Assembly: GCA_018985235.1 (NCBI GenBank)
Contig: JADGIG010000072.1
Location: 1 to 24,441 of the forward strand
Source: Sanchytrium tribonematis
Lineage: Eukaryota; Sanchytriomycota; Sanchytriomycetes; Sanchytriales; Sanchytriaceae
DNA: 24,441 bases
Direction of reading: 5' to 3'
Shown here: positions 8,559 through 24,334 of the stretch, one piece after another
Layout of the letters: the number at the start of each line of letters is the position of its first letter
Numbering within the stretch: position 1 is the first letter of the stretch
Made by a program: the position numbers and the translations under genes
Notes under the pieces: generated by a model
Told to the model about the DNA's origin: nothing
What the model saw: only the letters and a program-made list of their open reading frames with translations
Database searches by the model: none

Positions 8559-9885
8559 TTAAGTGAATTTTAATTTACGCCATAATGCAGCTTTTATAGA
8601 GTTGAACTCATCCTTGTTATTTAAAAGAACCGAATTATTTTCTTGCGCTCTTCTAATCAAATAAGGCACAACCGATTCCAGTGGCCCAAATGGAACCTAT
8701 ATAAATATAAACTACATATTTGTATGCTCTATAATTTTGTTTTGCATTGTTAAACGTCATGGTATCATGCATGCCTAGTAACTGTCCTAAAACGGCACTC
8801 TTTTTAAAGTCTTTAAATAGCTTCTGAGCCAGAATCATGGATTGCTTGTTATGAGACGCGATAATGTGAGTACTAGTTGGTTTCTTTTGAACGTAATTAT
8901 GCAAAATGTTTATCGCGGAATCAAAATCTTTATGAGTATTTTCAATGTTATCATGAATTGGAGAATCATAACTCATTTCTAATGCTCTTTTGCGCTCGCT
9001 TACCATATACGCACCACGCACAATTTTGCAACCAAAAAGAAACTTTTCTTTTTCAGCAAATTCAAGCGACTCTTTTAAATCGTGTATTCCTCGTTTAAGA
9101 TACATTTGGAAAGTGGGTAAAACTACAGATTTTTCGTGGTTGTATTCCTTAGCTAATAACATAGAAATGACACTGATCGCAGGTTGGTAGTAGCTTTGTT
9201 CGGCATCTATAGTAACTTGAGTTCTATGTTGTGATGCATAGTCAATTATATCTTGAACTCTGTGGTATATTCTTTTGAAATCCAAAAGGTCTCTTTCGGA
9301 ACACTCTATCTTTTCGTTTAAATATTTATCGCTTTCTTCAGACTCAAAAATTCGCAACAATTCTTGCTTTCCGTGTTTCTTTTCAATATCTAAAATTAAA
9401 TTTGTTACTCTTTTTAAGGCAATTGTCGGTCCCAATGCAGTTAATTTAATAGCGGAGAAGTCACCTAAGCAGGAAGACTTAAGAACTTCACCATGAGTAT
9501 CAGCAAGAATATGTTGTCTATTTCGTTCCTGAATAGAGTCAATTAGAACATCATCTTGTTCGACTGAGTAATCTGCAATAGTTCCGATATTCAGCTGCTG
9601 AAGTTTAATCATTGTAGCGCGAAGATCGTCGATTTTTTCACCACCGCAAAAGACCTTGAATAATGTATTTCTTAAAAACCAATGACCCACAAAATGATCA
9701 TACATCCATGGTTTAATGTATTCTGGTGGAAATCTTGAAAGATTGTATGTTAAATAATATTGAAATAATTTTGGCCATTGGTATTCATCATATAAAGATT
9801 CTTGATTATATCGTGATATGTCTAACATATAAGCAGCTGTAGCGATTGCTGGTGACCATCGTACAGCCCTTCTAAAAAAATTCAT
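8559..9885 (-). CDS. PRODH: Proline dehydrogenase (mitochondrial), two exons split by a 19-nt intron
   Basis: FAD enzyme of the mitochondrial inner membrane that oxidises proline to pyrroline-5-carboxylate and passes electrons to ubiquinone. Exons are 9885-8716 and 8696-8559; removing the intron at 8697-8715 gives 435 aa. Family motifs: VTIDAEQSYYQPAI, FGCKIVRGAYMVSERKRA, IIASHNKQS and LGQLLGMHDTMTF. After splicing come YKYVPFGPLESVVPYLIRRAQEN, the conserved C-terminal block. Without splicing the protein would end in unrelated residues after YKY. The first ATG (9885) gives an Arg-rich N-terminus (MNFFRRAVRWSPAIATAAYM) fitting a mitochondrial presequence. The upstream extension begins only with TTG. 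The spartin-like gene stops 29 bp upstream on the same strand. The stop lies 2 bp from the convergent tyrosinase stop. Confidence 0.93.
8697..8715 (-). other. 19-nt spliceosomal intron in PRODH (phase 0)
   Basis: Intron GTAGTTTATATTTATATAG between codons TAT and GTT. Excision joins YKY to VPFGPLES, the conserved PRODH motif. Contains TTTAT (YTNAY) with A at intron position 14. Confidence 0.93.
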
Positions 9886-9914
9886 AAATGTTTTAAAATT
9901 TATTTTTCTCAAAA

Positions 9915-10943
9915 TTATTTCTTAACGCTCGCTTTTGCGATTGTTTTCAAAATTGCAGATCTTCCTATTCCTCTGTAGTCAAAGTACATCAGAACCACAT
10001 ACTTACCAGTTCTTTTAAATGATTCTGCCAAACTTCTGGCGTCGCTTCCAAATTTATGATCAACAACTTCCAGCATAGCATCCCCAGTGGAATCAAAAAC
10101 CAATTTTCCACCTTGTTCAAAACCATCCCACACAGATACAATGCTTGACATAGTTTCTGTGGCAAGAGATCTCAACGATTCAGGAGCAAATTTGTAAATT
10201 TTCTTTCCAACTGAATTTCCCACAGAGGTTGAAACTTTGGTAAGTCTTCTTACAACTGTATAATTCGCCACTTTGTATGTCTTTTCAGTGGCCTTTTGCA
10301 TATTTCGAACATATTTTTTCGTTGAGTCGGAAAATTCCACATTACTGCCTCTTTCAGAGCTGCTGACATAGCTTTTAGCACAAATTTCAATTTTAGATGC
10401 AAGTGCACTCCCTGCGTTATATAATCCTCTTCCAATATTAAGTCCGATATTGGCAATGTAGCCTTCCTTATTTTCTTCATTACTTGTTGCTTGAACAGCA
10501 TTGTTATCAAGATCTACTTCTACATTTTCATGTGGTTGAAAGTCGATATCACTTGATATATCAGACAGTTCTGCTTGCTCCTTTCCATAATTATCCATCA
10601 TGACTAATTTATTTGCCTTGGACATATCTGATAACGACGTATACATCCTAAGTAACTCATACAGCGTATCATCATGCTTAGGAACCTCGAACTTAACAGA
10701 AACATCACCCTCATTTAAAGTAAAAACCTTATTCTCGAAGGTGCAAGTAGTTTGTTTTGTTAAAGGATGAGTGAAATATCCAGAAGGAGTCAGAAAGCTC
10801 AGAAAAGTCATCCACATCTCAGATTGATCGGGTCCTGTATATAAGCATTGAAAAATATTAAGATCGTGAGTGACCTTTTGCTTTCCATCGTCGAATATTG
10901 TATTTGGAATTTTGCACATGCATAGGGAAGACTCAATGTTCAT
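9915..10943 (-). CDS. Spartin/senescence-domain protein
   Basis: 342 aa. Residues ~160-335 match the senescence domain (found in animal spartin and plant ERD7/senescence proteins): small-residue-rich amphipathic helices beginning IANIGLNIGRGLYNAGSALA, repeated K/T/S segments, GNSVGKKIYKFAPESL, and a closing part with KLVFDSTGDAMLEVVDHKFG and GKYVVLMYFDYRGIGRSAILK. The N-terminal half (residues 1-110) looks like the beta-rich PH-like region of spartin. An acidic linker (~120-155) separates the two. Spartin acts at lipid droplets and on membranes and transfers lipids; that role here is by homology only. No N-terminal MIT domain is evident. The ATG at 10943 is first in frame. Its stop is 29 bp from the PRODH ATG. 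Confidence 0.72.
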   Translation of the reverse strand: MNIESSLCMCKIPNTIFDDGKQKVTHDLNIFQCLYTGPDQSEMWMTFLSFLTPSGYFTHPLTKQTTCTFENKVFTLNEGDVSVKFEVPKHDDTLYELLRMYTSLSDMSKANKLVMMDNYGKEQAELSDISSDIDFQPHENVEVDLDNNAVQATSNEENKEGYIANIGLNIGRGLYNAGSALASKIEICAKSYVSSSERGSNVEFSDSTKKYVRNMQKATEKTYKVANYTVVRRLTKVSTSVGNSVGKKIYKFAPESLRSLATETMSSIVSVWDGFEQGGKLVFDSTGDAMLEVVDHKFGSDARSLAESFKRTGKYVVLMYFDYRGIGRSAILKTIAKASVKK

Positions 10944-11450
10944 GTTTTACATCTCCCGCTTACAATTTTGAATTAGACAGCATATGGAACACATTCAGTA
11001 TTTGAGTTATTATTTATCGATATGTTTCGAAAAATAAATACAGGTACTAGCTCATTGGAGATTCAAGTTAAGAATACAAGCCAGATAGTAAAGAAGACTT
11101 TACATTCTTGATGAACACTTTTTCGTAGATATTGATCCTAACAGTAACTTTCATGTAGTGATCACTTTGCAGGTGCGAGTCAGTAAATTATTTTATTTAA
11201 TTAATACAAGTTGTGGATTTGTACAAGGGTACATGTTGAGTACTTTGTAGGGGTGTATGTAAGAGAATTTATCTAAACACGTAAATTTTTGCATTTCGCA
11301 ACAGGCTACTCTCTAACAATGAATTTTATTCTTTGTCAGGATTCTGCTGTGTCCTCCTTGCCATTATTTGAAAATTATCTATATTTTTGATTGGAATGAA
11401 ATCAAAATTTGGAATTCATATTTTTAGAACTAAATACCAAAAAATTAATT
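10944..11450. other. 507-bp gene-free region
   Basis: The longest stretch without a recognised gene. It should include the promoter of the spartin-like gene (ATTGG near 11054) and the 3' end of the Nudix gene. On plus, an ATG frame at 11022 is open for 29 codons to TGA TGA. An overlapping frame from 11092 is open for about 50 codons to TAG near 11250. The two cannot be joined by any GT-AG segment of suitable length that I found. No tRNA or rRNA hallmarks were seen. It may hold a decayed gene, an RNA gene or only regulatory DNA. Confidence 0.4.
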
Positions 11451-12248
11451 TTATAGTTTAGAAACAGACAACACATGCTTCATCAAAATATTGGAGATGC
11501 TTCCTGAAGGAGGCACTTTAAAGTCATTATTTTCATTCTTTAACGCCGACGACAATTCCGTGCGTGAAACCCACCGAATATCTTCAAGCTCTCCATCTGT
11601 GCCATGATTTGTCAAATCTGAGCAAATAGCCGTGAAACCAAGCATTAGTTGAGATGGAAATGGCCAAGCCTGCGATTTAAAGTACTTGATATCATGAACA
11701 ACAAGGCCAGTCTCCTCCATGCACTCTCTCTTTACTGCCTCTTCTGCCGATTCAGCAATATCAATAAACCCACTAATCAAAGAATAAAAACCTTTAGGAT
11801 GTCTTGCTTGCCTTCCCAGTAAAATTTTGTCCTCGCTTCTGATTACAACGATGACAACTGGATCAACTCGTGGATGACTTATATTGATGGTTTTTTTAAA
11901 GGTTATACAATTTAAATTCGTACACTTTTTTTTGAAGCCATCCGGTAAAACCTTTGAACCACAGCAACCACAAAATTTGACCAGGTCATGAAAGTTCATC
12001 ACGGATTTGCCAAGAATAGCCAGATGGAGTTCTAGGCTATCTTTTAAATTCATAAAATCGCGGTCTCTTGTTGGTTCCGAAGTTGTTTTGCAATAGTACG
12101 CGACACTACCATCATGTCCAAGATAAATCGAATTCTGATCGGGTTCCACATAAACTAGCTGGCTTTCTTTTATAACAGCACTAGAATTAATCAAAATACA
12201 TTTCTTCACCAAGTTGGCCGATTGATCAAAGGGGATCCTACGTAACAT
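11451..12248 (-). CDS. NPY1: Peroxisomal NADH pyrophosphatase (Nudix, NPY1/NUDT12/NudC type)
   Basis: 265 aa. The enzyme hydrolyses NAD(P)H to NMNH and AMP, and the NudC class can also act on NAD-capped RNA. A zinc ribbon is formed by C93, C96, C109 and C114. The Nudix box runs from G160 to G181 (GX5EX7REUXEEXGU, with R174-E175 and E178-E179). It is followed by SQAWPFPSQLM (residues 192-202), the SQPWPFPxS signature specific to NADH pyrophosphatases. The last three residues are SKL, a canonical peroxisomal targeting signal 1. This fits peroxisomal localisation of yeast Npy1 and animal NUDT12. There are no ankyrin repeats, unlike NUDT12. The start ATG (12248) is about 120 bp from the MscL-1 stop upstream. 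Confidence 0.92.
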   Translation of the reverse strand: MLRRIPFDQSANLVKKCILINSSAVIKESQLVYVEPDQNSIYLGHDGSVAYYCKTTSEPTRDRDFMNLKDSLELHLAILGKSVMNFHDLVKFCGCCGSKVLPDGFKKKCTNLNCITFKKTINISHPRVDPVVIVVIRSEDKILLGRQARHPKGFYSLISGFIDIAESAEEAVKRECMEETGLVVHDIKYFKSQAWPFPSQLMLGFTAICSDLTNHGTDGELEDIRWVSRTELSSALKNENNDFKVPPSGSISNILMKHVLSVSKL

Positions 12249-12368
12249 AAATTTTTTTGTACTCGCCGGTTGAAGTCTATGTTTTTAAATTAAGAAGAAT
12301 CGATATATCCCAGTCGATTATAATATTATTGTTCAAACATTTAAAATTGGGATTTTATTTGATATCAC

Positions 12369-12996
12369 TCAAACTAGATTTGCCTCACTACCAGTGTTGC
12401 CCAAATCTGTCGGAGATTTGTCATTTCTTCCCAAAGTTTCACTCTCCAGCATTTGGCTTTCATTATTAACGTTGACAGAAAACTTTTCTTCTGTGGGATC
12501 ATGAGAGCTACAATGGGGGCAAACTAAGGCTGACTTTTTGATTTCCTCGAGACAATATATGCAGCTACTAGCTTCTTCCTTTTTTTGCTTCAGTATGGCT
12601 TGAAGTAGGATCTAGGTCAATGAAAATTACTTTGGTAACGAGAAAGCAGAATAATGTCACTATTATAAAACTAATAATGGCAGATATCACAGCTCCATAA
12701 TTCATTGTTACAATTCCACTGGCATTTGCAGCAGCCGGATTTGGATAGGTTTGCCCATTGTATCCTTTTAAAGGCGCGTACAAATTCTCCAAGTTATTTG
12801 CACCTAGTAGGCCAATGATAGGATTTACGATATTGTTGACTATGGAAGTAACAATTGAATTAAATGCAGTGCCAATCACCACACCAATTGCCAACTCAAT
12901 CACATTTCCTCTCATTGCAAAGGCCTTAAACTCCTTGCCTAGATTCTTGGGCCCTCTCATGATTCTATTTCCTACTCTTTTAAACCTCCCAGGCAT
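12369..12996 (-). CDS. MscL-type mechanosensitive channel with C-terminal zinc ribbon, copy 1 (19-nt intron)
   Basis: Exons 12996-12631 and 12611-12369 give 202 aa. Residues ~26-115 are a large-conductance mechanosensitive channel (MscL) domain: [20 protein letters not shown] (TM1 and its N-terminal helix), [13 protein letters not shown], a periplasmic-type loop with LKGYNGQTY, and TM2 (~90-118). The channel opens under membrane tension to release solutes. Excision of the intron at codon 122 reveals a helix and a zinc ribbon C139-x2-C142-x10-C153-x2-C156, with the same spacing as in copy 2 next door. Unspliced, the protein would end 27 residues after the intron site with no ribbon. The ATG at 12996 is preferred; the upstream extension starts only with TTG. 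MscL is typical of bacteria and archaea, and bacterial MscLs with such a ribbon exist, so ancient horizontal transfer is plausible. Copy 2 lies 65 bp upstream. Confidence 0.88.
12612..12630 (-). other. 19-nt spliceosomal intron in MscL copy 1 (phase 0)
   Basis: Intron GTAATTTTCATTGACCTAG after codon AAA. Its removal restores the CxxC...CxxC ribbon shared with copy 2, which has no intron at the aligned position. YTNAY is TTGAC, A at position 14. Confidence 0.92.
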
Positions 12997-13014
12997 AAAA
13001 TTTTCGAGGTTCAA

Positions 13015-13079
13015 CGTTTAAATAATTATTTAGATATTAGGCCGGAAGATAATTGGCAGAAATTAGATTAATAATATTT
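13015..13079 (-). promoter_or_regulatory. Short promoter of MscL copy 1
   Basis: 65 bp between the MscL-2 stop and the region just upstream of MscL-1. Carries ATTGG at 13052-13056 on plus (CCAAT on the coding strand), 56 bp before the ATG at 12996. Confidence 0.35.
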
Positions 13080-13084
13080 TTATT
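13079..13084 (-). terminator. AATAAA enclosing the MscL copy 2 stop codon
   Basis: On the coding strand AAA TAA AAA places the stop TAA inside AATAAA. Confidence 0.5.
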
Positions 13085-13712
13085 TTGACTTAGATTGAGG
13101 GTCCAACAAGAGTGCCGTAGCCTGTGTGATTCCATTGACTTCATCATTGGTATCTTTCTTTAGAAAATCTTTTATTTGAGCATCGTCGAGGTCTTGAAAC
13201 GGATTTTTCGAAAGACAATGACAACAAATTAGCGCGTCAGATTTGATATTTTCGCAGCAAAACGAGCACTCGTCTTTCTCGTCGTCTTTATAATGTTTTT
13301 GTAAGTAGTGTAATAATGTATTAGCTAAAAGGTAACAAAAGAGAGAAACTAATATAAATGTAATTACAGAAGAGCAAACCGCTCCTAGATTCAACGTTAT
13401 TAAGCCATTTTTTTGTGCTTCAAGTACTGTTGTATATGTAGTCCCATTATATCCTTTTAAAGGAACATATGAATTTTCTAAATTACTCGTTCCCATCAAA
13501 CCAATAATTGGAGATAAGATATTGGAAACTATAGAATTGATAATGGTATTAAAGGCTGTGCCCATACATAGGGCAATGGAAAGCTGAACAATATTTCCCT
13601 TATTAATAAATTTTAAAAAATTTTGAGCTGCTGTTCTTGGTGCTTCAATTCCTCTTCGGATACCTCTTCTTGCAATGCTCGTGAATCTGACGTCCGGAAT
13701 GGAAATAGTCAT
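13080..13712 (-). CDS. MscL-type mechanosensitive channel with C-terminal zinc ribbon, copy 2 (intronless)
   Basis: 210 aa from the ATG at 13712. The MscL domain spans residues ~30-125: FLKFINKGNIVQLSIALCMGTAF (TM1), VSNILSPIIGLMGTSNLENSYVPLKGYNGTTY, and TM2 (LGAVCSSVITFILVSLFCYLL). A C-terminal ribbon C-x2-C-x10-C-x2-C (CSFC ... CCHC) is followed by a charged tail. It is a tandem paralogue of copy 1, sharing the LKGYNG loop and the FC(F/Y)L end of TM2. It lacks the 19-nt intron. The N-terminal ~25 residues are Arg-rich (RRGIRRG), as is common on the cytoplasmic side. It shares a 68-bp divergent promoter with V-ATPase subunit f, hinting at joint osmotic or vacuolar regulation (inference). Confidence 0.88.
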   Translation of the reverse strand: MTISIPDVRFTSIARRGIRRGIEAPRTAAQNFLKFINKGNIVQLSIALCMGTAFNTIINSIVSNILSPIIGLMGTSNLENSYVPLKGYNGTTYTTVLEAQKNGLITLNLGAVCSSVITFILVSLFCYLLANTLLHYLQKHYKDDEKDECSFCCENIKSDALICCHCLSKNPFQDLDDAQIKDFLKKDTNDEVNGITQATALLLDPQSKSK

Positions 13713-13780
13713 TTTGTAATTTAAGATGTGAATTGGATGGATGTTGACCTACATATTTTTATAAAATTTTTGTAACTCAA
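13713..13780. promoter_or_regulatory. 68-bp divergent promoter, MscL-2 / V-ATPase f
   Basis: Separates divergent start codons. Contains ATTGG at 13732-13736 (45 bp before the plus-strand ATG) and the AT-rich block TATTTTTATAAAATTTTT nearer the plus gene. Confidence 0.4.
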
Positions 13781-14038
13781 ATGGACAAAATTTTAATTTC
13801 AAAGTTTAACTCAATCCAGTGCTCGGTCATTTCATCGTTCGGAATTGTTTTTCTTGTTATCTTAGGAAGTTTATTTCAAAACCAAGCATATACTCTCGTT
13901 AAATCAAAACATCCGATAGAAGATCCTGTTGGAACCGGTACAAGTTGTCTGATAGCAGCTGGTTTATTTGCGTTGTTACTGGCATTTTCAATACAACAGC
14001 TTCATGCGCATAAACGAAATAGCTTGCGACTTCAATAA
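13781..14038 (+). CDS. V-ATPase V0 subunit f (RNASEK-like small membrane protein)
   Basis: 85 aa, the same length as I recall for the yeast subunit (YPR170W-B). Two membrane segments, residues ~15-33 (CSVISSFGIVFLVILGSLF) and ~54-72 (SCLIAAGLFALLLAFSIQQ), are joined by a polar loop with a D-P-V-G/T element. It ends in a basic tail (HAHKRNS). The pattern C-S-VIS-FG then ..AAGL...F matches the ribonuclease-kappa/V-ATPase f family, which forms part of the proton-translocating V0 ring assembly in vacuolar membranes. The assignment rests on this pattern and size. The stop is embedded in AATAAA. The bL12m gene follows after 30 bp on the same strand. Confidence 0.75.
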   Translation: MDKILISKFNSIQCSVISSFGIVFLVILGSLFQNQAYTLVKSKHPIEDPVGTGTSCLIAAGLFALLLAFSIQQLHAHKRNSLRLQ

Positions 14039-14039
14039 A
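14034..14039 (+). terminator. AATAAA enclosing the V-ATPase f stop codon
   Basis: CTT CAA TAA ATA: the stop (14036-14038) lies within AATAAA. A second AATAAA-type hexamer overlaps directly after it. Confidence 0.55.
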
Positions 14040-14068
14040 TAAAATCATTTAATTGTAGGAGTACCAGG

Positions 14069-14503
14069 ATGCTACGACTCTCAAAAAGATTACTACAAAA
14101 TGCGCTTACAAGCAACAATCCAAAAATACCGCAGCTTGTATCTGAAATAAGTTCACTTTCTTTAATTGATACTGCAGTGCTTGTACAAGAATTAAGAATC
14201 AAATTGAATATAAAAGATATGCCAATTATACAATCAGCACCACAAGCAGCTCCTAAAGAAGAAGCGAAGGAAGAGAAAAAAGCTGTAAAGTCGGCCTTTC
14301 AAATTGTAATTTCTAAAGTTGATGGTGATAAGAAGGCCAAAATCATTCGTGAATTAAAACAAATGATGGGATGGACCTTGGTAGATGCCAAAAAATTTGT
14401 TGAAAGTGTTCCTGGAACAGTTAAGAAAGATGTTGTGAAAGAAGAAGCAGAAGAAATTAAGAAAAAGCTTGAAGGTGTCGGAGCTACAGTCAAACTAGAA
14501 TAA
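14069..14503 (+). CDS. MRPL12: Mitochondrial ribosomal protein bL12m (L7/L12)
   Basis: 144 aa. An N-terminal basic amphipathic stretch (MLRLSKRLLQNAL) fits a mitochondrial presequence. Residues ~20-50 are the dimerising N-terminal helices (ISSLSLIDTAVLVQELRIKL). A flexible Ala/Glu/Lys/Pro hinge (~56-72) follows. The C-terminal domain (~73-144) includes KAKIIRELKQMMGWTLVDAKKFVESVPGTVKK and EEIKKKLEGVGATVKLE, the canonical L7/L12 globular domain that recruits translational GTPases. Length and domain order are complete. The stop is doubled (TAA TAA), and the convergent ETFA gene stops 16 bp further on. Confidence 0.95.
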   Translation: MLRLSKRLLQNALTSNNPKIPQLVSEISSLSLIDTAVLVQELRIKLNIKDMPIIQSAPQAAPKEEAKEEKKAVKSAFQIVISKVDGDKKAKIIRELKQMMGWTLVDAKKFVESVPGTVKKDVVKEEAEEIKKKLEGVGATVKLE

Positions 14504-14507
14504 TAAA
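14502..14507 (+). terminator. AATAAA overlapping the bL12m stop codon
   Basis: GAA TAA TAA ATA: the hexamer begins at the second base of the stop. Confidence 0.5.
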
Positions 14508-14519
14508 TATCTTGTTTAA

Positions 14520-15417
14520 TTATAGCTTTTCTGTCAGCTCTGGAACAGCTTTGAATAGATCTGCGACAAGACCATAGTCAGCCAACTCCATCATGGGACA
14601 TTCTGCATCCTTGTTAATAGCGACAATGACCTTAGCATCTTTCATTCCAGCCACATGCTGAATAGCGCCACTGATTCCAACTGCAATATATAGCTCAGGA
14701 GCTACAACAACACCAGTTTGGCCGACTTGATAGGCGTTATCAACATAGCCAGCATCCACAGCTGCTCTTGAGGCTCCTATGGCTGCGCCAAGTTTATCTG
14801 CTAGAGGAGTAATAACACTAAGTGAGAGACAAATACGTTTTGAAATTTTCCGCGGACTTGAGAGCGCGCCCTCCAGAGACCACAACTTTTGCCCCACCCA
14901 GTTCTGGTCGATCTCCTCCACTGGTTTGGACATTAGTAGTCTTGACACGAGGTTCAGATAATTTGATTTCTTCTATTTCACCACTCGATTCTTTCAACGA
15001 TTCTCCTGTAAATGCCGTTGGTCTAATGCTAAAAAGAATTTGATCTTCATTAGTTTTCACCTGAGATACAACATTTCCTGCAAACATGAGGCGCGTGAAG
15101 TCCTTAGATCCCTCAATTTTAGTTATGTCACTTATCATGGATTTACCCAAAATAGCTGCTAATCGAGGAAGTACGCTTCTTCCTTTGGAATCGTGGGCCA
15201 TAATGATGTGTGTGTATTTTTTAAAATCGATTTTAATACCATGTAAGTCTTCTGGCTTTAAGTCGCGGTTTAGTAAAAAATGTTTTTTTGTAGTGTCGGG
15301 AGCTAATTTTTTGTGAGACAAGACGCTAATGTCTTTTCCGATTTTCTTCGCTGCAGCAGCTGATTGAGGAGTTGGATTAATTAACAAAATTTGTCTGAGA
15401 ATGACATTGTTAAACAT
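14520..15417 (-). CDS. ETFA: Electron transfer flavoprotein alpha subunit, two exons split by a 19-nt intron
   Basis: Exons 15417-14837 and 14817-14520 give 292 aa. With ETF-beta it carries electrons from mitochondrial acyl-CoA and amino-acid dehydrogenases to ETF-ubiquinone oxidoreductase. The N-terminal domain includes [21 protein letters not shown] and MISDITKI. The C-terminal FAD domain has [17 protein letters not shown], then after splicing [56 protein letters not shown] and [20 protein letters not shown]. The break between ENFK and PLADKL falls exactly where the 19-nt segment sits. Unspliced reading ends at a TAG formed by the intron's own last bases. The start ATG (15417) gives a short hydrophobic and basic leader. 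It lies 32 bp downstream of the uS7m stop. Confidence 0.95.
14818..14836 (-). other. 19-nt spliceosomal intron in ETFA (phase 2)
   Basis: Intron GTATTTGTCTCTCACTTAG within an ACT codon (AC|T). Excision joins the SGGRALKS block to the [20 protein letters not shown] block. YTNAY is CTCAC, A at position 14. The terminal TAG is an in-frame stop if retained. Confidence 0.94.
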
Positions 15418-15449
15418 TGGTTTGAAAAAATAAATTTATGCACAATAAA

Positions 15450-16013: not shown

Positions 16014-16215
16014 TTCGGAATCCCCTTTTCCAAGTTTTTTTACCAGTTTATATTTTCAATTGCAGTATAAGGAGCATTTTAATTTTGATTTACTAATAAA
16101 AAATCCGCTGTCCGGCAGATTACGATTATACTTGAAGGCGGGCAATACAGTGTCTTACTACCTTACATGTCATTAATTGGTTAGCAATGTAATATATTTA
16201 TTGAATAGATATAAG
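16014..16215 (-). promoter_or_regulatory. Intergenic region upstream of uS7m
   Basis: 202 bp holding the UBC7 3' end, with AATAAA on the coding strand about 15 bp after the UBC7 stop, and the presumed uS7m promoter. No further coding sequence, tRNA or intron consensus was seen. Confidence 0.35.
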
Positions 16216-16732
16216 CTAATCGAGACCCAAAGTTCTTTTAACTAGTTGTCTAACCTACATAAATCTAGAATACCTGTCTCTCGTATTCTTTGGGACTTTC
16301 TCGCAGCAATTTGCTAGCGTCAATATTAGCAGCTGATTCAGGATTAGGCTCGTGTAGCATACTTACAACACTAAGTAATATTTTTTCAACGCTTTGAACA
16401 GGAGACCATCTCTCCGAGCTATCTTCATAACCATATTGATCCTCGCCTGGAGCGTGTAGAATTGAAATACAAACCTCTCCATTTTGATATACATTTGGAT
16501 GCAGCATCTCGCAAGTAAATCGCATCTTAGGTGGTTGCAAAGGATAGTTGGGTGGAAATGTGAGTTTTGCAGTAAAAACACCACCTTCGTATGGACATCC
16601 GTCTGGTCCCATTATGATAGCATCCCATTCCAAGTAGTTTGATTCTTCAGAGGGACCGGCTGTAATTCCGTCTGGAGCATCTTTGCATAGCTGCTTGTAT
16701 TCGTTCATTAAGCGCTTGACTGCAGAGGACAT
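16216..16732 (-). CDS. UBC7: Ubiquitin-conjugating enzyme E2 of the UBC7/UBE2G2 class, two exons split by a 19-nt intron
   Basis: Exons 16732-16274 and 16254-16216 give exactly 165 aa, the length of yeast Ubc7. This E2 serves ER-associated degradation. The start [15 protein letters not shown] is canonical; an upstream in-frame ATG exists 11 codons earlier but gives a non-family extension. The HPN motif is at 78-80 and the catalytic cysteine is C88 ([10 protein letters not shown]). The class-specific acidic insertion is at ~94-108 ([17 protein letters not shown]), followed by [18 protein letters not shown]. Splicing replaces an immediate stop after ERQVF with [15 protein letters not shown], matching the UBE2G2 C-terminal helix ending KSLGL. 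It diverges from the 7TM-RGS gene through a 155-bp shared promoter. Confidence 0.96.
16255..16273 (-). other. 19-nt spliceosomal intron in UBC7 (phase 0)
   Basis: Intron GTATTCTAGATTTATGTAG after codon CAG. It contains in-frame TAG if retained. Excision yields the family C-terminus and the exact 165-aa length. YTNAY is TTTAT, A at position 14. Confidence 0.95.
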
Positions 16733-16887
16733 ATTTGTAATGATGACACAAGGAGATTTGATCATCTGCTTTATTGAGTCCAAATATAAACTCAATGCTG
16801 GCCAATAGCAGTGTCTAACTGCTTATTATTATTATTGCGATTGATTTTACATTATATTTCAAGCCCTGCCATTGTAAGCCACTTTAA
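16733..16887. promoter_or_regulatory. Divergent promoter, UBC7 / 7TM-RGS
   Basis: 155 bp between divergent start codons. Carries CCAAT on plus at 16802-16806 (82 bp before the plus ATG, 70 bp before the minus ATG) and a run of ATT repeats near 16825. Confidence 0.4.
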
Positions 16888-18096
16888 ATGTTGGAAATTT
16901 TGTATACAATTTTGGTTGTTCTTGGGACCCATCTTCCCGGAATTATTATCTGGGTGACTAAACAGAAACAAAATCACTACACCACAAGATTTATTGGTTT
17001 AACTTTCACATTATACGCGTTTTTAATGCTAGTGTTTGTCGGTTGTCTTTTTACAAACACTGCTTTCACGAGTTCCGACATTCAAATTCCCTGTGGAGTA
17101 ATTTGGTTTTTACTTTATTGCTGTATACCTGCTTTTATACTTCTCACTTACAGAACAATTTTGTTTGTTGAAATGTACCGAGCTCATAATCTGGTTATTT
17201 TGAGCGATTTTTTGGACAAATTCTTTCGCAAATCACCAGAAAGTGAATTGAATGAGTACGAAAAGACACTGAGTCGAAAGGTGGTTCCAAAAGTAGGTAC
17301 GAAGCAGTATTTGATAGTATTAAGTTTATCAATTGTCACTCTACTAGTTATGTTTGGGATTGGTATATTTATCTCGGGACCATCAGAAATGGCCAGATTT
17401 CCTAATCAATCTTCTATTTGTGATTATCAAATGGCAATAGTCTTACTCGCATTCATTGTATTTTGCCTCTCAATACAAATTTATTGTATGTGGTTATTGA
17501 GAAATTGCAAGGATGGTCTTGGTATTAGTATTGAGCTGATGGTCATGCTTGTAATTGCTCTCCCTTCGTACCTAATTTTTGTTGTTGTTGTTTTTCTCAG
17601 CAGTAATGATGTCGCTGGGATCATAGCTCCTTATGTGGGTTTGGTGCCTACTTACTTTCTAATGACGTCAATTCTGTATTTTCCAGAGATTTTTATGTGG
17701 ATCACCACATTAAGGATTAAAGAGCAGTCCAAATTCGCTTATCCTTATTTTGAACAAGCATTTAGTAAACCGGATGCACGAAAACAGATGGAAGAAATCG
17801 CGAAAAAGAGACTTTGCAGCGAACTCACAAATTTTATGAAAGTATTTGATGAAATGGAAAAAATATATCTTTTAAATGGTGTGTGCTCACCATACCGAGA
17901 TTTGGGTCAAATTATTATTGCAAAATATTTGGCAGACACCAGTGAGGAGCAAGTGTGCTTGAATGAGGATGTAGTTGTCAGGATTATGGACGTTCCAAGA
18001 GAAGAGGCAATTCCTTTTGAGTATTGGCTAATTGCGAAAAAAGATGTTTTATATATGATTTATGAAAATATTTACAAATACTATGTCGAAACGTAG
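16888..18096 (+). CDS. Seven-transmembrane receptor-like protein fused to an RGS domain
   Basis: 402 aa. Seven hydrophobic helices lie at approximately 4-23, 33-55, 69-94, 140-163, 181-204, 214-237 and 246-271, with a charged loop (95-139) between the third and fourth. Residues ~305-402 resemble a regulator-of-G-protein-signalling domain: ELTNFMKVFDEMEKIYLLN, a middle helical region with IIIAKYLADTSEEQVCLNED, PFEYWLIAKKDVLYMIYENIYKYYVE at the end. RGS domains speed GTP hydrolysis on G-alpha. 7TM-RGS fusions are known, for example plant AtRGS1 and fungal proteins. The RGS match is by pattern and moderately divergent. Start is the first ATG after the UBC7-side promoter. The TAG stop is 1 bp from the convergent RFC gene. 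Confidence 0.72.
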   Translation: MLEILYTILVVLGTHLPGIIIWVTKQKQNHYTTRFIGLTFTLYAFLMLVFVGCLFTNTAFTSSDIQIPCGVIWFLLYCCIPAFILLTYRTILFVEMYRAHNLVILSDFLDKFFRKSPESELNEYEKTLSRKVVPKVGTKQYLIVLSLSIVTLLVMFGIGIFISGPSEMARFPNQSSICDYQMAIVLLAFIVFCLSIQIYCMWLLRNCKDGLGISIELMVMLVIALPSYLIFVVVVFLSSNDVAGIIAPYVGLVPTYFLMTSILYFPEIFMWITTLRIKEQSKFAYPYFEQAFSKPDARKQMEEIAKKRLCSELTNFMKVFDEMEKIYLLNGVCSPYRDLGQIIIAKYLADTSEEQVCLNEDVVVRIMDVPREEAIPFEYWLIAKKDVLYMIYENIYKYYVET

Positions 18097-18102
18097 TTTA
18101 TT
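18097..18102 (-). terminator. AATAAA enclosing the RFC stop codon
   Basis: Coding strand GAA TAA ACT: the stop TAA lies inside AATAAA, which also abuts the convergent 7TM-RGS stop. Confidence 0.5.
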
Positions 18103-19126
18103 CGAAATCATCGTCGATCATCATCTTGCGAGACTTTTTCACGTGAACCATACATTTAGCCACGTAAGCTTCCAAATGCATAATCGGCTTAGAACCTTTT
18201 TGACATCTTAAATCAAATGTTGAGGCTTCTATCCATATTTGTTTTCGAAACTGGTCATTCAATTTAGCACAAAGTTGCTCGGTTATTTCAAGCAGTACAA
18301 TATCAGTGGGAATGCACTTAGTGATGAGCTCATACAACATTGCCCTTATTTTAAGAAGTTGTGATGCACTCTGCTCTGTCATTATCAATTGAACAATTTT
18401 GGAAATATACTTGATGTAATCAGGACCCACACTGTCTACTTCCTTAATATTACCATTATATTTCACTGAAGCAGTTTCCAATTCAAGTAGAACGCTTTTT
18501 AAATTTCTGTTATTTCTTGTTATTAAATCAGTTAAAATTTCATCACTAACTTTAATGTTGTGCTCCATGCAAAATTTGCCACATATTTCTTTGATGACTT
18601 TCTCAGAAGGTGCAGAAATTCGGAAACTTGCACATCTACTGACCAAAGGTGATATAATTTTTCCGATATTTTCCACTATAAATATAAATCTCAAATTTCC
18701 GCTATAGACTTCCATTGTACGTCTTAAAGCATGTTGCGCTTGTTGAGAAAGTAAGTCGGCGTCTAAAATAACAATAACTTTTGGGTGCTCTGTGATGGAC
18801 TTTGTCGATGCCATTTCTTTTACAATATATTGCATGACGAATCTATCGCTATTACCAAGCTCGCTGGGGTGAAGTTCAGTGTGTACATTGGATGAAAGCA
18901 AGTTGACTTCTAAATTTCTTGAGCCTGCCTTAATGACTTTTTGTTCTAATTTTACATGATTGACATGGTCACCAAGCCATTTTCCAAGTAAGGCCCTTAC
19001 TCTTGTATAACGCCCTGATCCCTTCGGCCCATAGAAAATAAAATTGTTGATTTCTTCCAAATCCTTAAGTCTTTCTGTACCGTAGTCCAATTGATCAAGT
19101 GAGTAAGAATTGTCGGCAAACAACAT
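18098..19126 (-). CDS. RFC3: Replication factor C small subunit (human RFC3 / yeast Rfc5 type)
   Basis: 342 aa clamp-loader subunit that helps open and load PCNA. The N-terminus MLFADNSYSLDQLDY is a contracted form of the LWVDKYRP..LDQLDYH start. Residues 32-41 are YGPKGSGRYT, where the Walker A lysine is arginine (R39). AQHALRRTMEVYSGNLRFIFIVENIGKIISPLVSRCASFRI contains the box VI/VII region with the SRC arginine motif. The Walker B segment reads VILDADLLSQQ, without the catalytic acidic pair. The C-terminal collar helices are LRAMLYELITKCIPTDIVLLEI and FDLRCQKGSKPIMHLEAYVAKCM. The RFC3/Rfc5 position in the clamp loader is non-catalytic, so a degraded ATP site is tolerable. The gene ends in an acidic MIDDDFE tail. 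WDR75 stops 21 bp upstream. Confidence 0.9.
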   Translation of the reverse strand: MLFADNSYSLDQLDYGTERLKDLEEINNFIFYGPKGSGRYTRVRALLGKWLGDHVNHVKLEQKVIKAGSRNLEVNLLSSNVHTELHPSELGNSDRFVMQYIVKEMASTKSITEHPKVIVILDADLLSQQAQHALRRTMEVYSGNLRFIFIVENIGKIISPLVSRCASFRISAPSEKVIKEICGKFCMEHNIKVSDEILTDLITRNNRNLKSVLLELETASVKYNGNIKEVDSVGPDYIKYISKIVQLIMTEQSASQLLKIRAMLYELITKCIPTDIVLLEITEQLCAKLNDQFRKQIWIEASTFDLRCQKGSKPIMHLEAYVAKCMVHVKKSRKMMIDDDFE

Positions 19127-19146
19127 TCAAGGAGAAATATTTTATT

Positions 19147-19152
19147 TTTATT
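19147..19152 (-). terminator. AATAAA enclosing the WDR75-like stop codon
   Basis: Coding strand AAA TAA AAA TAA: stop TAA within AATAAA, with a second AATAAA six bases on. Confidence 0.5.
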
Positions 19153-21175
19153 TGATCAATTTTTTCAAATATTTGGGCGGCTTTCTAAATTCACTAGAAT
19201 GAAATTGGAACAAGCCAGCATCCAAATCGAATGAATTCCTTCTAGGGATTGTATATTCACTATCAGAGGTCAAAACTGGGGCTTCTTCAAATTGCATTTG
19301 CGATTCCAAAAGGGCACAAAGATCATCATCCATTACGTACATGTGATTATTTGGAAGATCAAATAGCTCTTGAAGCGGTTCTATAAAAGAAGTAGTCTTG
19401 TGAACTTCTGGAAGAGAAAATTGGTCTTTTTGAATTTTGTTGTATATTGACATTAAATTATGTCTTGCAGATGATGTCACTGAACCAGGACCAGTAGCAA
19501 TTTCACCTTCTGATTTTTTTGATACAAGTATCCCAGCCTGGGAATAAATTATTCTAGAGCTTGGAAAATCATAAAAAGCGTTGGTGCCTGTTGGAAAATT
19601 TTCTGATTTAAACAAAGGTTTGTCTGATTGGAAATGTCTTCTTTTTGACTCTAGAACGTCGTGAATATTTAACTTTAAGTTTTTAGACTTTCCAAAAATA
19701 TAAGATTCAAAAAGTTTTCCATCCTCAAATTTTGCAGCAGACACCATACACCCAGTTAAAATATCAATTACATACAATGCAGATTTTGAGACGCAATATG
19801 CGGTGTTTTTCACAACTTCAATTTGGCGACAACCAGGAATCCTTAACTCTTTTAAAATGCCATATTTGAAAGAATATATTACCACTGACTTATCACAACA
19901 AATAATCATAGAGGTTCCATCTTTGCTAAACGCGCTTGCGTTGTACTCAATTTCTAGCTTGTGCACATTTTGAAGTGTAAATGTCAAGTCATAAACTTCA
20001 ACCTGTTTGGATTTTGCAATAAATATAGAATTATCAACCAATTTCATGTTCATAATTTGAGAACTGGCTTTTTGAAGCAGCTTGAACGTGTATTCTCCAT
20101 CAACAAGGTGATAAACTCTCAAATACAGTTCATTTACAACGCAGATTAACAATTTTTGACAGATTAAGAAATCTGTTAAAATCGGTTCAATAGGAGTCAT
20201 TTTTTTAGTACATTTTGGGGTGTATCTCCATTCTGGTGCGTAATCAATAGTATCAACTACGTCACCAAATTGATTTACAACCTGGATGATACCTGCGGTG
20301 CTATTTACATATAAGAAATCCTCGAATTTTAATAACTTCGCCTTATAGTCTTTACTTTCAAGTATCAATTTTTTAAAAAGTCTTACAGGATTAGAGTTAT
20401 TCATAATAGAGTAGATGGCATTATCCTCTGCCTTGATAAGAAGAGAGCTTCCGCATTTGACCATGTTTTGAATCGGTCCTCTATGAATTCTGCTAATGAA
20501 ATCCTTTGACTTTGTACCCATATGGTAATAAACTAAAACCGATTCATGCCCGATACTGCAAATTGTTTGGTCAAGCACTGCAATACCAGTTACAGCAGAC
20601 GAGTGCCAATGATACATTTCGAAATGTTGCAGAGATTTGTCTAACCTAAAAATTAAGATTTGCCCACCTTTTGTTCCTACTACGCAAATATTGCCTTCAA
20701 CTACTATTGTAGTTATAGTAAATGGAATTGTTTTTTTAGTTACAACTCCATCGAAATGAAAAGTCAACGTATTTTTTTCGTATTCTATCAGATTCTCTTT
20801 CTTCAGACACAAAAACTTTCCCGAAAGAGATGCCATGTGATGAGCCATCCCATCAAGATCATCTAAAGGCACACTGAGTACTTCGCAATTGATGTCTTTG
20901 TACACAAGTCTGTCATTAACGACCTGTATATCTTGAGCCTCTAAAGCAATAGCTAAAGGCTCCGCTTTTTCGATAAATACCATTGATTCATGCCATTTGT
21001 ACAAAATCAAATTATCACGCAACACAAATAAATAAACGTGGCTATTGTGAATCCCGAGCGCTACACAATTAGCATCTACTTCTAAAATTATTTCGTTTCT
21101 CAAATCAGTTACATGTACACCATGTTTTGTTATAAATGCAGAAAGCTGAACACTCTGTCCAACAGTCGCTATCAT
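19148..21175 (-). CDS. WD-repeat SSU processome protein, WDR75/Utp17 (Nan1) family
   Basis: 675 aa from the ATG at 21175; upstream in-frame codons begin only with TTG. Beta-propeller repeats are weak but regular through residues ~1-480. The most family-like stretch is CVVGTKGGQILIFR ... MYHWHSSAVTGIAVLDQTICSIGHESVLVYYHMGT, corresponding to the HWH-S...LLSGG-E-VLVLW block of WDR75. Later blades include EWRYTPKCTKKMTPIEPILTDF and YNASAFSKDGTSMIICCDKSVVIYSF. A C-terminal tail (~500-675) is Ser-rich and unstructured. WDR75/Utp17 belongs to the t-UTP subcomplex that couples rDNA transcription to 18S rRNA processing in the nucleolus. The assignment is good for the family, not certain against other propellers. 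A 45-bp gap leads to PXMP4 upstream. Confidence 0.72.
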   Translation of the reverse strand: MIATVGQSVQLSAFITKHGVHVTDLRNEIILEVDANCVALGIHNSHVYLFVLRDNLILYKWHESMVFIEKAEPLAIALEAQDIQVVNDRLVYKDINCEVLSVPLDDLDGMAHHMASLSGKFLCLKKENLIEYEKNTLTFHFDGVVTKKTIPFTITTIVVEGNICVVGTKGGQILIFRLDKSLQHFEMYHWHSSAVTGIAVLDQTICSIGHESVLVYYHMGTKSKDFISRIHRGPIQNMVKCGSSLLIKAEDNAIYSIMNNSNPVRLFKKLILESKDYKAKLLKFEDFLYVNSTAGIIQVVNQFGDVVDTIDYAPEWRYTPKCTKKMTPIEPILTDFLICQKLLICVVNELYLRVYHLVDGEYTFKLLQKASSQIMNMKLVDNSIFIAKSKQVEVYDLTFTLQNVHKLEIEYNASAFSKDGTSMIICCDKSVVIYSFKYGILKELRIPGCRQIEVVKNTAYCVSKSALYVIDILTGCMVSAAKFEDGKLFESYIFGKSKNLKLNIHDVLESKRRHFQSDKPLFKSENFPTGTNAFYDFPSSRIIYSQAGILVSKKSEGEIATGPGSVTSSARHNLMSIYNKIQKDQFSLPEVHKTTSFIEPLQELFDLPNNHMYVMDDDLCALLESQMQFEEAPVLTSDSEYTIPRRNSFDLDAGLFQFHSSEFRKPPKYLKKLIK

Positions 21176-21237
21176 CCTTTGATTCACCCTCAATTTGAAA
21201 ACGCAGACTTTGGTTTGTCAATAACAATCAAACATAA

Positions 21238-21243
21238 TTTATT
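21238..21243 (-). terminator. AATAAA enclosing the PXMP4 stop codon
   Basis: Coding strand CAA TAA ATT: stop TAA within AATAAA. Confidence 0.5.
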
Positions 21244-21724
21244 GCAGGTAAATATATTCCATCGATGTTCTCAAAGACGCCTGTAAATTTTTAGGATAGT
21301 GGTAAAAAAGCCACATGACCATTGCCCAATTCAGACCAGCCACCACTCTCTGGTTTTGATTATTGAACCATAACAAGTTATATTTTTCATTAAGAGTTGC
21401 AAAGAGCCCATATATATTACGACTTAATAAGTACATGACAACTTGTTGTGATAAAAAATGATCTCCAAAACAAAGACATCCAAAAACAAATCCAGGTAAA
21501 ATTTCTCTGATGTGTGGAGAGGGTATCATTGATCTCGCAAATCTGAATAACCCTCCAAAACAACCTAAGCGTATTGCATGTTGAAGGGTAAGTTTGATAA
21601 TTTGTTCCAGCATTTTAGGTAGTGAGTCTCTTTTAAACAATAAAGTCATGACAAGTGAATGTGGTGCTCTCACTTTGGACCCATATCGAAATCCATGGTG
21701 CAAGCCTCGTAAAAGAGCATCCAT
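21239..21724 (-). CDS. PXMP4: Peroxisomal membrane protein 4 (PXMP4/PMP24)
   Basis: 161 aa from the first ATG (21724). A near-family signature opens it: GFRYGSKVRAPHSLVMTLLF, matching G..YG.KIRAPHALVM.FLF of PXMP4. Then QQVVMYLLSRNIYGL (family INMYLLSRV), NWAMVMWLFYHYPKNLQASLRTSMEYIYLQ (family W.LVLWLFEYH...LQPSLQSSM.YLY). Four membrane-associated helices are likely. Relative to human PXMP4 it lacks about 25 N-terminal and 25 C-terminal residues. The SulP stop lies only 26 bp upstream, so no missing upstream exon fits. The molecular role is unknown in the family beyond peroxisomal membrane residence. Together with the SKL-tagged Nudix enzyme it argues that peroxisomes are present. Confidence 0.9.
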   Translation of the reverse strand: MDALLRGLHHGFRYGSKVRAPHSLVMTLLFKRDSLPKMLEQIIKLTLQHAIRLGCFGGLFRFARSMIPSPHIREILPGFVFGCLCFGDHFLSQQVVMYLLSRNIYGLFATLNEKYNLLWFNNQNQRVVAGLNWAMVMWLFYHYPKNLQASLRTSMEYIYLQ

Positions 21725-21750
21725 ATCGATAAGTTTCAAAAATTTATTTT

Positions 21751-23503
21751 CTAGGCTAGTGCTTCATTTAAACTTTGAAAAAATCGATCACCTACTAGTG
21801 CCGCCAAACCACTTCTAAATATCTTCTTTTGACAACTTCTCCTCATTTTAACAACGCTTACAAGAATATTTCTTTCGTGATAACTTTTTACCACTTCGTA
21901 AAGAATTTCAATTGCACTAAATAAATCAAATGTACGTTGAATCAACTCTTTTCATATTACCTATATCAAATATTATATGATGAATTGCTGCTTGTGAAGG
22001 ATGGTCTGAGGGATGATGTTCCAAATGACCATGGGCTTCTAATCGATGTACCCGTTCCATCATTTCAGCTGAATTTGCAAAGTGCAGAGACTCATCAATT
22101 TGTAACAGCAAAACACCGTCTATTCCTTCAGATTCATCAGGAAACTCCGAAAGGGCAAGATACTCGTCGCTAGTACCATGCCGCCTTCCTAAAAGTGTGA
22201 TCTTTGGAAGTGTAGTATTTCTAACATTAAGTAATAATGCAATTAATATAGCAAATAATGCTCCGTATTCAATGCTTATAGACAAGGTTATTATAAATAC
22301 GACGATACTTATAACAATATCTTTCCAAGCATGTAATTTAATTAAAAATGATATTTTTTGTCGCTCGATTAAATTATAGGCAGCCTGAGTTACAATACAT
22401 GCAGTAGCTGCCAGAGGCAAATATTTGAAAGCTGGTAACAGTAAAAGCGTGCTTGTCAAAACGAACAGCGCTACAAAAATCTGGCTAATAGGAGTCTCTA
22501 CATGGCTATTATGTGAAATCATGCTTCTTGCCAAAGATCCATAAACTGGCATACAGCCAAAGAATGAACCGACAATATTAGTCAGACCTAAGGCCACTAA
22601 TTCACGATTTCTGCTTATAGCGTACCCTTTTATACTCGCAAAAGATTTGGAAGCAATCATGCTTTCCATAAATCCAATAACAGCAATAACACCAGATGGT
22701 CCTATAAGGCTTTTCACAGAAGTGTCTAGATTTTTTAATGGTAGAGACATCTTAAATAAATCACCATGTACCTCGATATTGCCAACAATTGCTATGCCAT
22801 AAGTCTTAAAATTTAGCAAATAACTGAAAAATATGTTCAAAATAACCAAGGGCAAGATCACAGGAACCTTAAATTTTAATATTTTTGAAAATGAATTATA
22901 TAAAATAATAAATATCAAGCAGAAACAGCTTAAAAGTAATGTTTGAATATGAAGCGTATCCAGTGTTTCAATTTCGCTCCAAAGTAGCTCGAGTGGCGAA
23001 GAACCGCGTGCAACATGTATACCAAACATAAACGGTATTTGTTCTATAATAATTGTGCAGGCTACCCCACTTATAAATCCAGCAATAATTGGCCTCGAAA
23101 AAATTGCATCCAAAAATCCAAATCGCATTAAACCCAATAATAAAGTTATAATTCCGCATATAAATGCAATGCTGTTTTCATGCTTATATTGACCAATTAA
23201 AATACAGACAACAGCATCCAGTCCAATGGATAAACTATGGGAAGATCCAAAAATTGCATATATAAATAAAGGAAAGATTGTACTCTTTAATCCAACAACA
23301 GTGGGTATTTTTGCTAATGTCATGGTATAACTTATAACTTGTGGAATTAAAATACATGTCAAAGTGAGCGCTGCTGTAATATCTCTCAGGAATTTGGTTG
23401 AATTGTAATCTTGCATCCATTTCATTATGGGGACATAATATGTCGATCTTCGTATTATGTGCTCACTTGAAGAGAGTAGCGGTGATAAGGAATTAAAATT
23501 CAT
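21751..23503 (-). CDS. SulP-family anion transporter with STAS domain (sulfate permease-like), two exons split by a 19-nt intron
   Basis: Exons 23503-21936 and 21916-21751 give 577 aa. Membrane domain, residues ~35-430, with many hydrophobic helices: FLRDITAALTLTCILIPQVISYTMTLAKIP (SulP entry motif), FGSSHSLSIGLDAVV, GFISGVACTIII, AVIGFMESMIASKSFA, NRELVALGLTNIVGSFFGCMPVYGSLARS. The last two are the classic SulP ME(S/T)...G..N....FF...P..GS..RS elements. The STAS domain runs from ~445: ALSEFPDESEGIDGVLLLQIDESLHFANS, IIFDIGNMKRVDST, then after splicing AIEILYEVVKSYHERNILVSVVKM and SGLAALVGDRFFQSLNEAL. Substrate (sulfate, bicarbonate or other anions) cannot be decided. The His-rich insert before the last STAS strand (HGHLEHHPSDHPSQAAIHH) is unusual. 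Confidence 0.95.
21917..21935 (-). other. 19-nt spliceosomal intron in the SulP transporter (phase 2)
   Basis: Intron GTACATTTGATTTATTTAG within an ACT codon (AC|T). Excision restores VDSTAIEIL, the canonical STAS loop and helix. Retention gives TGA two codons in. YTNAY is TTTAT, A at position 14. Confidence 0.95.
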
Positions 23504-23519
23504 AACGGAGAGTTACAAA

Positions 23520-23525
23520 TTTATT
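23520..23525 (-). terminator. AATAAA overlapping the deacetylase-like stop codon
   Basis: Coding strand TTT TAA TAA ATT: AATAAA starts at the second base of the stop, and the next gene's ATG (23503) follows within 21 bp. Confidence 0.5.
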
Positions 23526-24334
23526 AAAAAAACCATCCCAGTCTGTTAGCACCACTATATGTATCTTTTGGCTTAGAAGTAGGAACTGGCCCGGAACTAC
23601 TGCTTCCGGAATTAAGTCCAGAATTTGGATTTGGCCCAGTACAATTTCCCCACCATTTAGATGATACTGAATAGCATGAACATAGATCATTAAATGGTTT
23701 GTTTGTGGAATTAAAATACCATTGAAGTGTTGCACTAGTGAATTTAGATTCTGCAAACTCATTCAGAATCACAACATCGTTTCCTAAAGATGAAAGTACA
23801 GATTTGATTTGGGCTTCAGTAGAATTGTAATCTACACTATCTTTGCTCCAAATTGTAGGGTAAAAATTAGACGAAAGCAATTGCTGGTTGACCGAGTCGC
23901 TTAGAGCAGTATTAGTATATGCAACAAATTTTGGCACTGCTCCTAAATTTTGAAACCAAACGTCTTTCTCTGCATTTAAGGTTGCAGAAATGTCATTTGT
24001 AAATTTTTTTATAACATTCATTCCTAATCTAAATTAAAAAAATTTACGTATGTCCATAGTTAGCAATCTGCTTCACCATATTCCAATCTGTGGTTGGGCT
24101 TGTTTCAATCATAAATGTTCCCTTAATTTTTAGCTGGGTCAATGCATTCAAAATATCAGCAGTGTGAGCAGAAGGTCCGTTGTAAAAGGTAAGTGCAACT
24201 CCACTTCCACATGTACTTTTGGCGGGAGCTGTTTCTGAGCATGTAGCAACTGGTACTCTTCGTTCCAAAATATGTTCAGGTGTAAAGTAAAACACAGCGG
24301 CTAATAAAACGAAGATACTAACAATTTGATACAT
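23524..24334 (-). CDS. Chitin/polysaccharide deacetylase-like secreted protein lacking catalytic residues, two exons split by a 19-nt intron
   Basis: Exons 24334-24048 and 24028-23524 give 263 aa. N-terminal signal sequence (MYQIVSIFVLLAAVFYF). The NodB-homology core is recognisable: GVALTFYNGPSAHTADILNALTQLKIKGTFMI lines up with the VALTFDDGPS.YT..LL..L....VKATFFV segment, and ANYGHTLGMN with the EGH.IG.HT block. However, TFDDGP is TFYNGP (residues 49-54), removing the catalytic and metal-binding aspartates. The metal-binding HTWSH is replaced by MNVIKKF, and the later RPPY and terminal His motifs are absent. The fold may be kept for chitin or wall binding. The C-terminus is a Ser/Gly/Pro-rich low-complexity tail. 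Fits a cell-wall or host-interface protein (inference). Confidence 0.8.
24029..24047 (-). other. 19-nt spliceosomal intron in the deacetylase-like gene (phase 2)
   Basis: Intron GTAAATTTTTTTAATTTAG within an ACA codon (AC|A). Excision joins NYGHT to LGMNV, the GH.IG.H region of NodB proteins; retention stops at once. YTNAY is TTAAT, A at position 14. Confidence 0.9.

Follow-up and report, generated by a model that had tools for sequence, protein, structure and literature searches.

The stretch of DNA analysed here (the window, 24,441 nucleotides (nt)) is one whole contig, JADGIG010000072.1, of an assembly of 6,336,753 bases in 311 contigs, and six of its genes appear to be interrupted by introns of only 19 nt. 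A sequence-only reading of the window had claimed six such frame-breaking segments, each running from GTA to TAG, and all six were found where it had placed them, on the minus strand and exactly 19 nt long. They lie in the genes for proline dehydrogenase (PRODH; segment 8697..8715, phase 0, gene 8559-9885), MscL-1 (12612..12630, phase 0, gene 12369-12996), ETFA (14818..14836, phase 2, gene 14520-15417), a UBC7/UBE2G2-like E2 (16255..16273, phase 0, gene 16216-16765 with a second Met at 16732), a SulP-family transporter (21917..21935, phase 2, gene 21751-23503) and a polysaccharide-deacetylase-like protein (24029..24047, phase 2, gene 23524-24334). Two open frames are joined upon removal at all six sites. 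Expressed as amino acids (aa) from the upstream stop to the junction plus those downstream after removal of the 19 nt, the joined frames are 402+45 (PRODH), 129+80 (MscL-1), 199+99 (ETFA), 183+12 (UBC7), 525+55 (SulP) and 101+168 aa (deacetylase). Without splicing, the upstream frames stop after 20 codons in PRODH and MscL-1, 6 in ETFA, 2 in UBC7, 3 in SulP and 1 in the deacetylase. We counted about 20 genes in the window rather than the sixteen given earlier, and neither a tRNA scan nor an Rfam scan gave a match in it.

Comparison with protein families strongly backs the putative joins in PRODH, ETFA, SulP and UBC7. In Pfam, the Pro_dh score of PRODH is 184.4 bits spliced and 144.1 unspliced, and the STAS domain of SulP scores 54.1 bits spliced and 22.8 unspliced; the FAD domain of ETFA scores 113.8 bits spliced and is unreported in the unspliced frame. 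The gains are small for UBC7 (168.4 vs 166 bits), MscL-1 (113.4 vs 107.9 bits) and the deacetylase (30.9 vs 29.5 bits, the weakest family score among the six). The claim that removal restores the family sequence in all six genes is therefore upheld by Pfam for PRODH, ETFA and SulP, and Pfam alone is insufficient for the other three. For UBC7, the alignment of the spliced protein with a solved Ubc7/UBE2G2-type E2 extends to the C-terminal end of that structure, and the spliced protein has the predicted length of 165 aa when counted from the second Met. The join in MscL-1 is supported by its paralogue MscL-2, since exon 2 encodes a CxxC..CxxC tail as in the adjacent gene and the two proteins are identical at 77/166 positions overall. 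The two MscL genes lie side by side (12369-13712, minus strand), both with the cysteine-rich tail, and the intron splits MscL-1 only. The deacetylase join is more weakly backed by homology: the spliced protein aligns with a solved deacetylase (PDB) over residues 45-170, spanning the junction (E 1.3e-7).

The 19-nt class is not confined to the window. In a sample of 234,223 bases (12 contigs or parts, with 20 pattern-picked loci excluded) of the 6.34-Mb genome, the motif GTA-N-TNAYNTAG with variable spacing has 49 matches of 19 nt and 7 of 20 nt, whereas the 20 lengths 14-18 and 21-35 average 2.85. The counts are 1 at 18 nt and 3 each at 21, 22 and 23 nt, and those at 15, 16 and 17 nt (3, 5 and 1) are background as well. 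Because the motif was derived from the six window introns, only the 43 matches at 19 nt that lie beyond the window count as independent (Poisson P about 4e-37). The window itself has no 19-nt match apart from the six introns and none of 20 nt; matches of the other lengths of 15-25 nt are scattered over 6 places. Thus the statement that none of the introns is 18, 20 or 21 nt long holds for the window, whereas the genome has a 20-nt minority, with 18, 21 and 22 nt at background.

The same lengths stand out when the reading frame is considered. At sites with coding-like flanks (both 90-nt flanks with a score >2, a threshold picked after a stricter version), excision is needed at 25/25 sites of 19 nt and 6/6 of 20 nt and retention fits none; for other frame-breaking lengths excision is needed at 1/9. 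The genome-wide length plot of the frame-repairing motif that had been proposed shows, in the 234 kb, a peak at 19 nt and a minority at 20 nt. Furthermore, a motif-free count of GT...AG spans gave 48 frame-repairing spans at 19 nt and 15 at 20 nt, compared with 3 to 17 for each remaining frame-breaking length of 13-40 nt, and a GA...TG control gave 16 at 19 nt without a peak there.

When a gene model was required to use the motif, with introns of 12-250 nt allowed, it made 38 calls in the 234 kb: 28 at 19 nt, 6 at 20 nt and 4 above 100 nt. With the motif reversed there were 5 calls and with its A changed to T there were 4, all of at least 79 nt; the length peak thus requires the A of TNAY, as the A-to-T motif gave 0 calls at 19 or 20 nt. 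What had been described as a fixed 19-nt spliceosomal class in a fungus is upheld as ultrashort and narrow in length, but not as fixed (28 at 19 nt, 6 at 20 nt). The model misses many introns, given that it recovers 3/6 of those in the window. Allowing any GT...AG of 9-120 nt gave 82 introns, of which 19 were of 19 nt, 7 of 20 nt and 56 scattered (at most 4 per length). The scattered calls were discounted because many, by eye, cross a gene end into the neighbouring gene, and one of 22 nt is a 19-nt intron whose start sits 3 nt later. With GTA...TAG only, 26 of 83 calls were at 19 nt, 6 at 20 nt and 51 scattered. Genes are packed very tightly in the window, with gaps often of a few tens of bases (e.g. 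14503/14520 and 18096/18098), and because of such packing the model readily fuses neighbours through false introns of 60-120 nt. Among 34 model introns the phases are 10/11/13. Their positions are skewed toward the 3' half of the gene (median 0.68), a skew left uninterpreted because the model sees early introns less easily.

For the whole genome we used the pattern GTAW, 3-13 nt, TNAYTTAG, with the pattern read backwards as control. The first 100 of its 630 places include 62 at 19 nt and 12 at 20 nt, with 0-5 for every other length of 15-25 nt. An estimate from this strict pattern, which matches 19/34 of the model introns, is about 370 introns of 19 nt and 57 of 20 nt, and motif density gives about 1,250 and 110. 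We take the number of introns genome-wide to be probably several hundred to somewhat more than 1,000.

T12, A14, Y15 and TAG17-19 are identical across all six window introns. At positions that are free in the pattern, the 62 listed 19-nt places have T5 in 44, T6 in 47, A10 in 34, T or C at 11 in 58 and A or T at 13 in 55, which gives the consensus GTAWTTNNNAYTWAYTTAG. The A of the motif stands at 14 in 19-nt introns and at 15 in 20-nt introns, and its distance to the end is 5 in both. UACUAAC is the classic branch site, and AYTWAY is similar to it. The A lying 5 nt before the last G is presumed to be the branch point.

Introns at the same sites also seem to be present in relatives whose database proteins end in tails resembling read-through, where the fits were obtained by back-translation of the tails. 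In the PRODH relatives P0244 (ENA) and P0242 (EukProt), removal of 19 nt at the PRODH site of the window fits 32/32 and 19/20 residues, with the next-best lengths fitting at most 13 and at most 10, respectively. The tail of the ETFA relative P0004 fits removal of 20 nt at the ETFA site with 16/16 residues (next-best length at most 8). The read-through tail of the window's own ETFA is too short to discriminate lengths (13 nt 7/8, 19 nt 6/6). Because the relatives' tails fit removal at the same sites, the intron class seems to predate the split of these lineages. The database copies of the window's PRODH and ETFA likewise finish in intron read-through, an example of how open-frame protein calling on such contigs truncates proteins at each intron.

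The genome encodes several parts of a spliceosome. U6 (61.8 bits) and U2 (115.9 bits) are both above their Rfam thresholds, and by eye the recognition boxes are canonical: ACAGAGA in U6, GUAGUA in U2 and AUACUUACCU in a U1 candidate. The U1 candidate starts, by eye, with AUACUUACCUU, and its predicted fold has several stems and a free 5' end. The U6-binding domain of Prp8 scores 282.6 bits within an open frame of 2239 aa.

As for the host, its GC content is 35.18% (293,358 bases), and sanchytrid genomes have 34.6-36.3%. The assembly analysed has 6.34 Mb, compared with 10.5 and 11.2 Mb published for sanchytrids; 12 contigs of known length all have at least 11,955 bases, so that short contigs may be missing. 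Paramicrosporidium saccamoebae was rejected as the host, as its GC content is 47% (7.3 Mb; PMC5701793). HSP90 (contig C288) has two relatives, 84 and 88% identical (the latter P0124, EukProt), whose organisms may differ from those of the PRODH and ETFA relatives. Among the 120 matches listed, the named full-length ones after these relatives are fungi, mostly zoosporic, and 4 proteins from plants or flies (854-1180 aa, 65-71% identity) also stand high by bits. A tree built with no outgroup from 35 of these 120 has the genome and the two relatives in one clade on a long stem, and it does not put this clade beside Blastocladiomycota. A single open frame of 541 aa (C197:16452-17777, minus strand) contains both a rhodopsin and a guanylate cyclase domain, and a rhodopsin-guanylyl cyclase fusion of 532/535 aa is described in sanchytrids (PMC8371127). 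The frame resembles BeGC1, a light sensor of Blastocladiomycota and sanchytrids, and the fusion is therefore not unique to sanchytrids. A dynein heavy chain, cut by the contig end, occupies 2-5404 (minus strand; AAA_6 227.1 bits) of the window; it scores best with dynein-2 (296.9 bits), then with dynein-1 (270.2 bits) and an axonemal-type dynein (263.8 bits). Sanchytrids are reported to lack axonemal dyneins and IFT-A, and a best score with dynein-2, an intraflagellar-transport motor, would be odd if IFT-A has been lost in them. This dynein and the smaller assembly size weigh against a sanchytrid host.

Taken at the level of sequence, the segments are very probably spliceosomal introns of U2 type, shrunk to little beyond their recognition elements, in a zoosporic fungus that is most likely a sanchytrid, a parasite of algae. 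Each would consist of the 5' site GTAWTT, a spacer of 3-4 nt, the branch site AYTWAY and NTAG. The 5' site would be read by U1 and then U6, the branch site would be read by U2, and branching would occur at A14, or at A15 in 20-nt introns. Only three bases separate this A from the AG, too few for a polypyrimidine tract, so the choice of the 3' site should not need tract reading by U2AF. Introns of 19 and 20 nt differ in length only in the part before the branch A, from which we infer that a steric ruler, 13 or 14 nt before this A, may set intron length.

Several observations weigh against this interpretation. By count alone, the excess at 20 nt in the 234 kb is modest (7 vs 2.85, P 0.027). With the stricter threshold for coding flanks (120-nt flanks, score >8), the 19-nt sites fell to 2, both requiring excision, no 20-nt site was left, and one 25-nt site was compatible with retention. 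The genome pattern has 297 + 333 = 630 matches and its backwards control 365 + 348 = 713; because the total is not above the control it is uninformative alone, and the signal lies in the length split only. As to the splicing machinery, the U1 candidate reaches 43.7 bits where the Rfam threshold is 69.5, and the stability of its fold is unremarkable (energy z -1.27). U5 was not found in the genome search, U4 gave two sub-threshold matches only (E 0.77 and 0.99), and for the large subunit of U2AF there were 20 matches, all below the threshold of 310.3 bits (the best at 51.6), results that do not show absence of any of the three. A U1C-type finger was above its cut-off, but an E. coli control also matched. 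Finally, a third PRODH relative, P0243, is without an intron at the PRODH site of the window. An intron of 20 nt may lie in this relative 10 nt downstream from that position (9/9 residues), by loss and gain or by sliding; the fit was left uncounted because few residues lie beyond the junction.

Other explanations have to account for the same segments. That they are indels of assembly or sequencing is scarcely conceivable: the assembly does look short-read and the frame is broken at every site, but errors would not bring GTA, TNAY and TAG at fixed spacing, the motif recurs in 43 further 19-nt matches outside the window, and the tails of independent relatives (ENA, EukProt) fit removal at these very sites. 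The broken frames would also suit a process other than splicing, i.e. DNA elimination like that of the internal eliminated sequences (IESs) of ciliates, ribosomal bypassing or programmed frameshifting. IESs carry TA near both ends, as GTA...TAG does. However, a cut from TA to TA takes 15 nt of the 19 and the frame stays broken, and frameshifting would need two different shifts for 19 and 20 nt, yet excision repairs both (31/31). With a branch-like motif and U1, U2 and U6 genes that fit splicing, we regard these processes as highly improbable. The contig could also come from a lineage already known for ultrashort introns, namely a chlorarachniophyte nucleomorph, a heterotrich ciliate or a mikrocytid. 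Nucleomorph introns are 18-23 nt long, and 70.3% of those of Bigelowiella natans are of 19 nt (PMC4494063). Such an origin is nevertheless very hard to credit: the genome here has 6.34 Mb and metabolic genes, whereas chlorarachniophyte nucleomorphs have 330-1,033 kb; nucleomorph introns are described without an obvious branch motif (PMC6461891); heterotrich introns are of 15-16 nt and mikrocytid introns of 16-17 nt, whereas the peak here is at 19-20 nt; and the best named full-length HSP90 matches are fungi among the matches listed.

A further alternative accepts the introns and concerns only what holds their length, which might be selection against frame-keeping retention combined with a deletion bias instead of a steric ruler. 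Retention of 19 or 20 nt does break the frame, and 18 and 21 nt are at background (1 and 3). However, 22 and 23 nt break the frame too and are yet at background (3 and 3), and the distance from the A to the end is constant between 19 and 20 nt. As 22 and 23 nt are no commoner than 18 and 21 nt, the upper limit must have a cause besides selection against frame-keeping lengths, and we consider this alternative unlikely.

Ultrashort uniform introns are already known in nucleomorphs, heterotrichs and mikrocytids; their occurrence in a fungus appears to be new as far as searched. The sequence-only reading named nucleomorphs and ciliates as precedents but omitted mikrocytids, in which every intron has 16 or 17 nt (PMC10245619). 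Its statement that no fungal lineage with such introns has been described agrees with our search, which found no report among the open-licence PMC papers listed. In both the sanchytrid genome paper and the sanchytrid TPPP paper, the main text has the word 'intron' once, in a reference title, and the word 'sanchytri' is absent from the main text of a fungal intron paper (PMC8476143).

Chlorarachniophyte nucleomorphs have, like the genome here, ultrashort GT-AG introns in hundreds per genome, with 19 nt the commonest length in B. natans (PMC4494063, PMC4035089, PMC6461891). Unlike the introns here, those of nucleomorphs span 18-23 nt, have an excess of phase 0 and lack both an obvious branch motif and an identifiable 5'-site motif, whereas here the lengths are 19-20 nt and the branch-like motif is strong. 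The heterotrich Stentor coeruleus shares the GTA start, AT-richness, the distance of 5 from the A to the end and canonical U1/U2/U6 boxes; it differs in its length of 15-16 nt, in the branch-point A at 10 of 15 or 11 of 16 instead of 14 or 15, and in being reported without a strong branch consensus (PMC9505925). Mikrocytos mackini likewise has a very narrow length class and conserved sequence, but with 217/224 introns of 16 nt and 7/224 of 17 nt, and mikrocytid introns are reportedly absent from genes for metabolic enzymes and transporters, whereas here they are in PRODH, ETFA and SulP (PMC10245619). Trichomonas vaginalis is similar in its short introns with a fixed branch motif near the 3' end and different in that its introns are few and the shortest is of 23 nt (PMC12316389). 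Fungal introns generally have U2-type signals as here, a short-intron example being Cryptococcus with a mean of 63 bp (PMC8476143).

We lean towards a broader proposal, in which all or nearly all spliceosomal introns of the whole phylum of sanchytrids would be of 19-20 nt, having shrunk before its diversification to the limit of a steric ruler (13-14 nt to the branch A plus 5 nt), in parallel to nucleomorphs, heterotrichs and mikrocytids. The 5-nt spacing shared with Stentor would then be the smallest that is physically feasible for a spliceosome, and protein sets based on plain open frames of these contigs would be cut short at hundreds of unrecognised introns. With such introns, which are among the shortest known, fungi would join the few lineages whose introns are near-minimal, as a case distinct in its one dominant length, its strong branch-like motif and its introns in metabolic and transporter genes. 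Furthermore, the minimum geometry of the spliceosome becomes testable with lineages that have the same branch-to-end spacing (here and Stentor) and different spacing between the 5' site and the branch.

Elsewhere in the window, three open frames (16888-18096 and 5895-6551 on the plus strand, and 5474-5800 on the minus strand) are without a Pfam match at E 0.001. A tyrosinase-domain protein (97.2 bits) is encoded at 6850-8556 on the plus strand, with a long Pro/Thr-rich part C-terminal of the domain.

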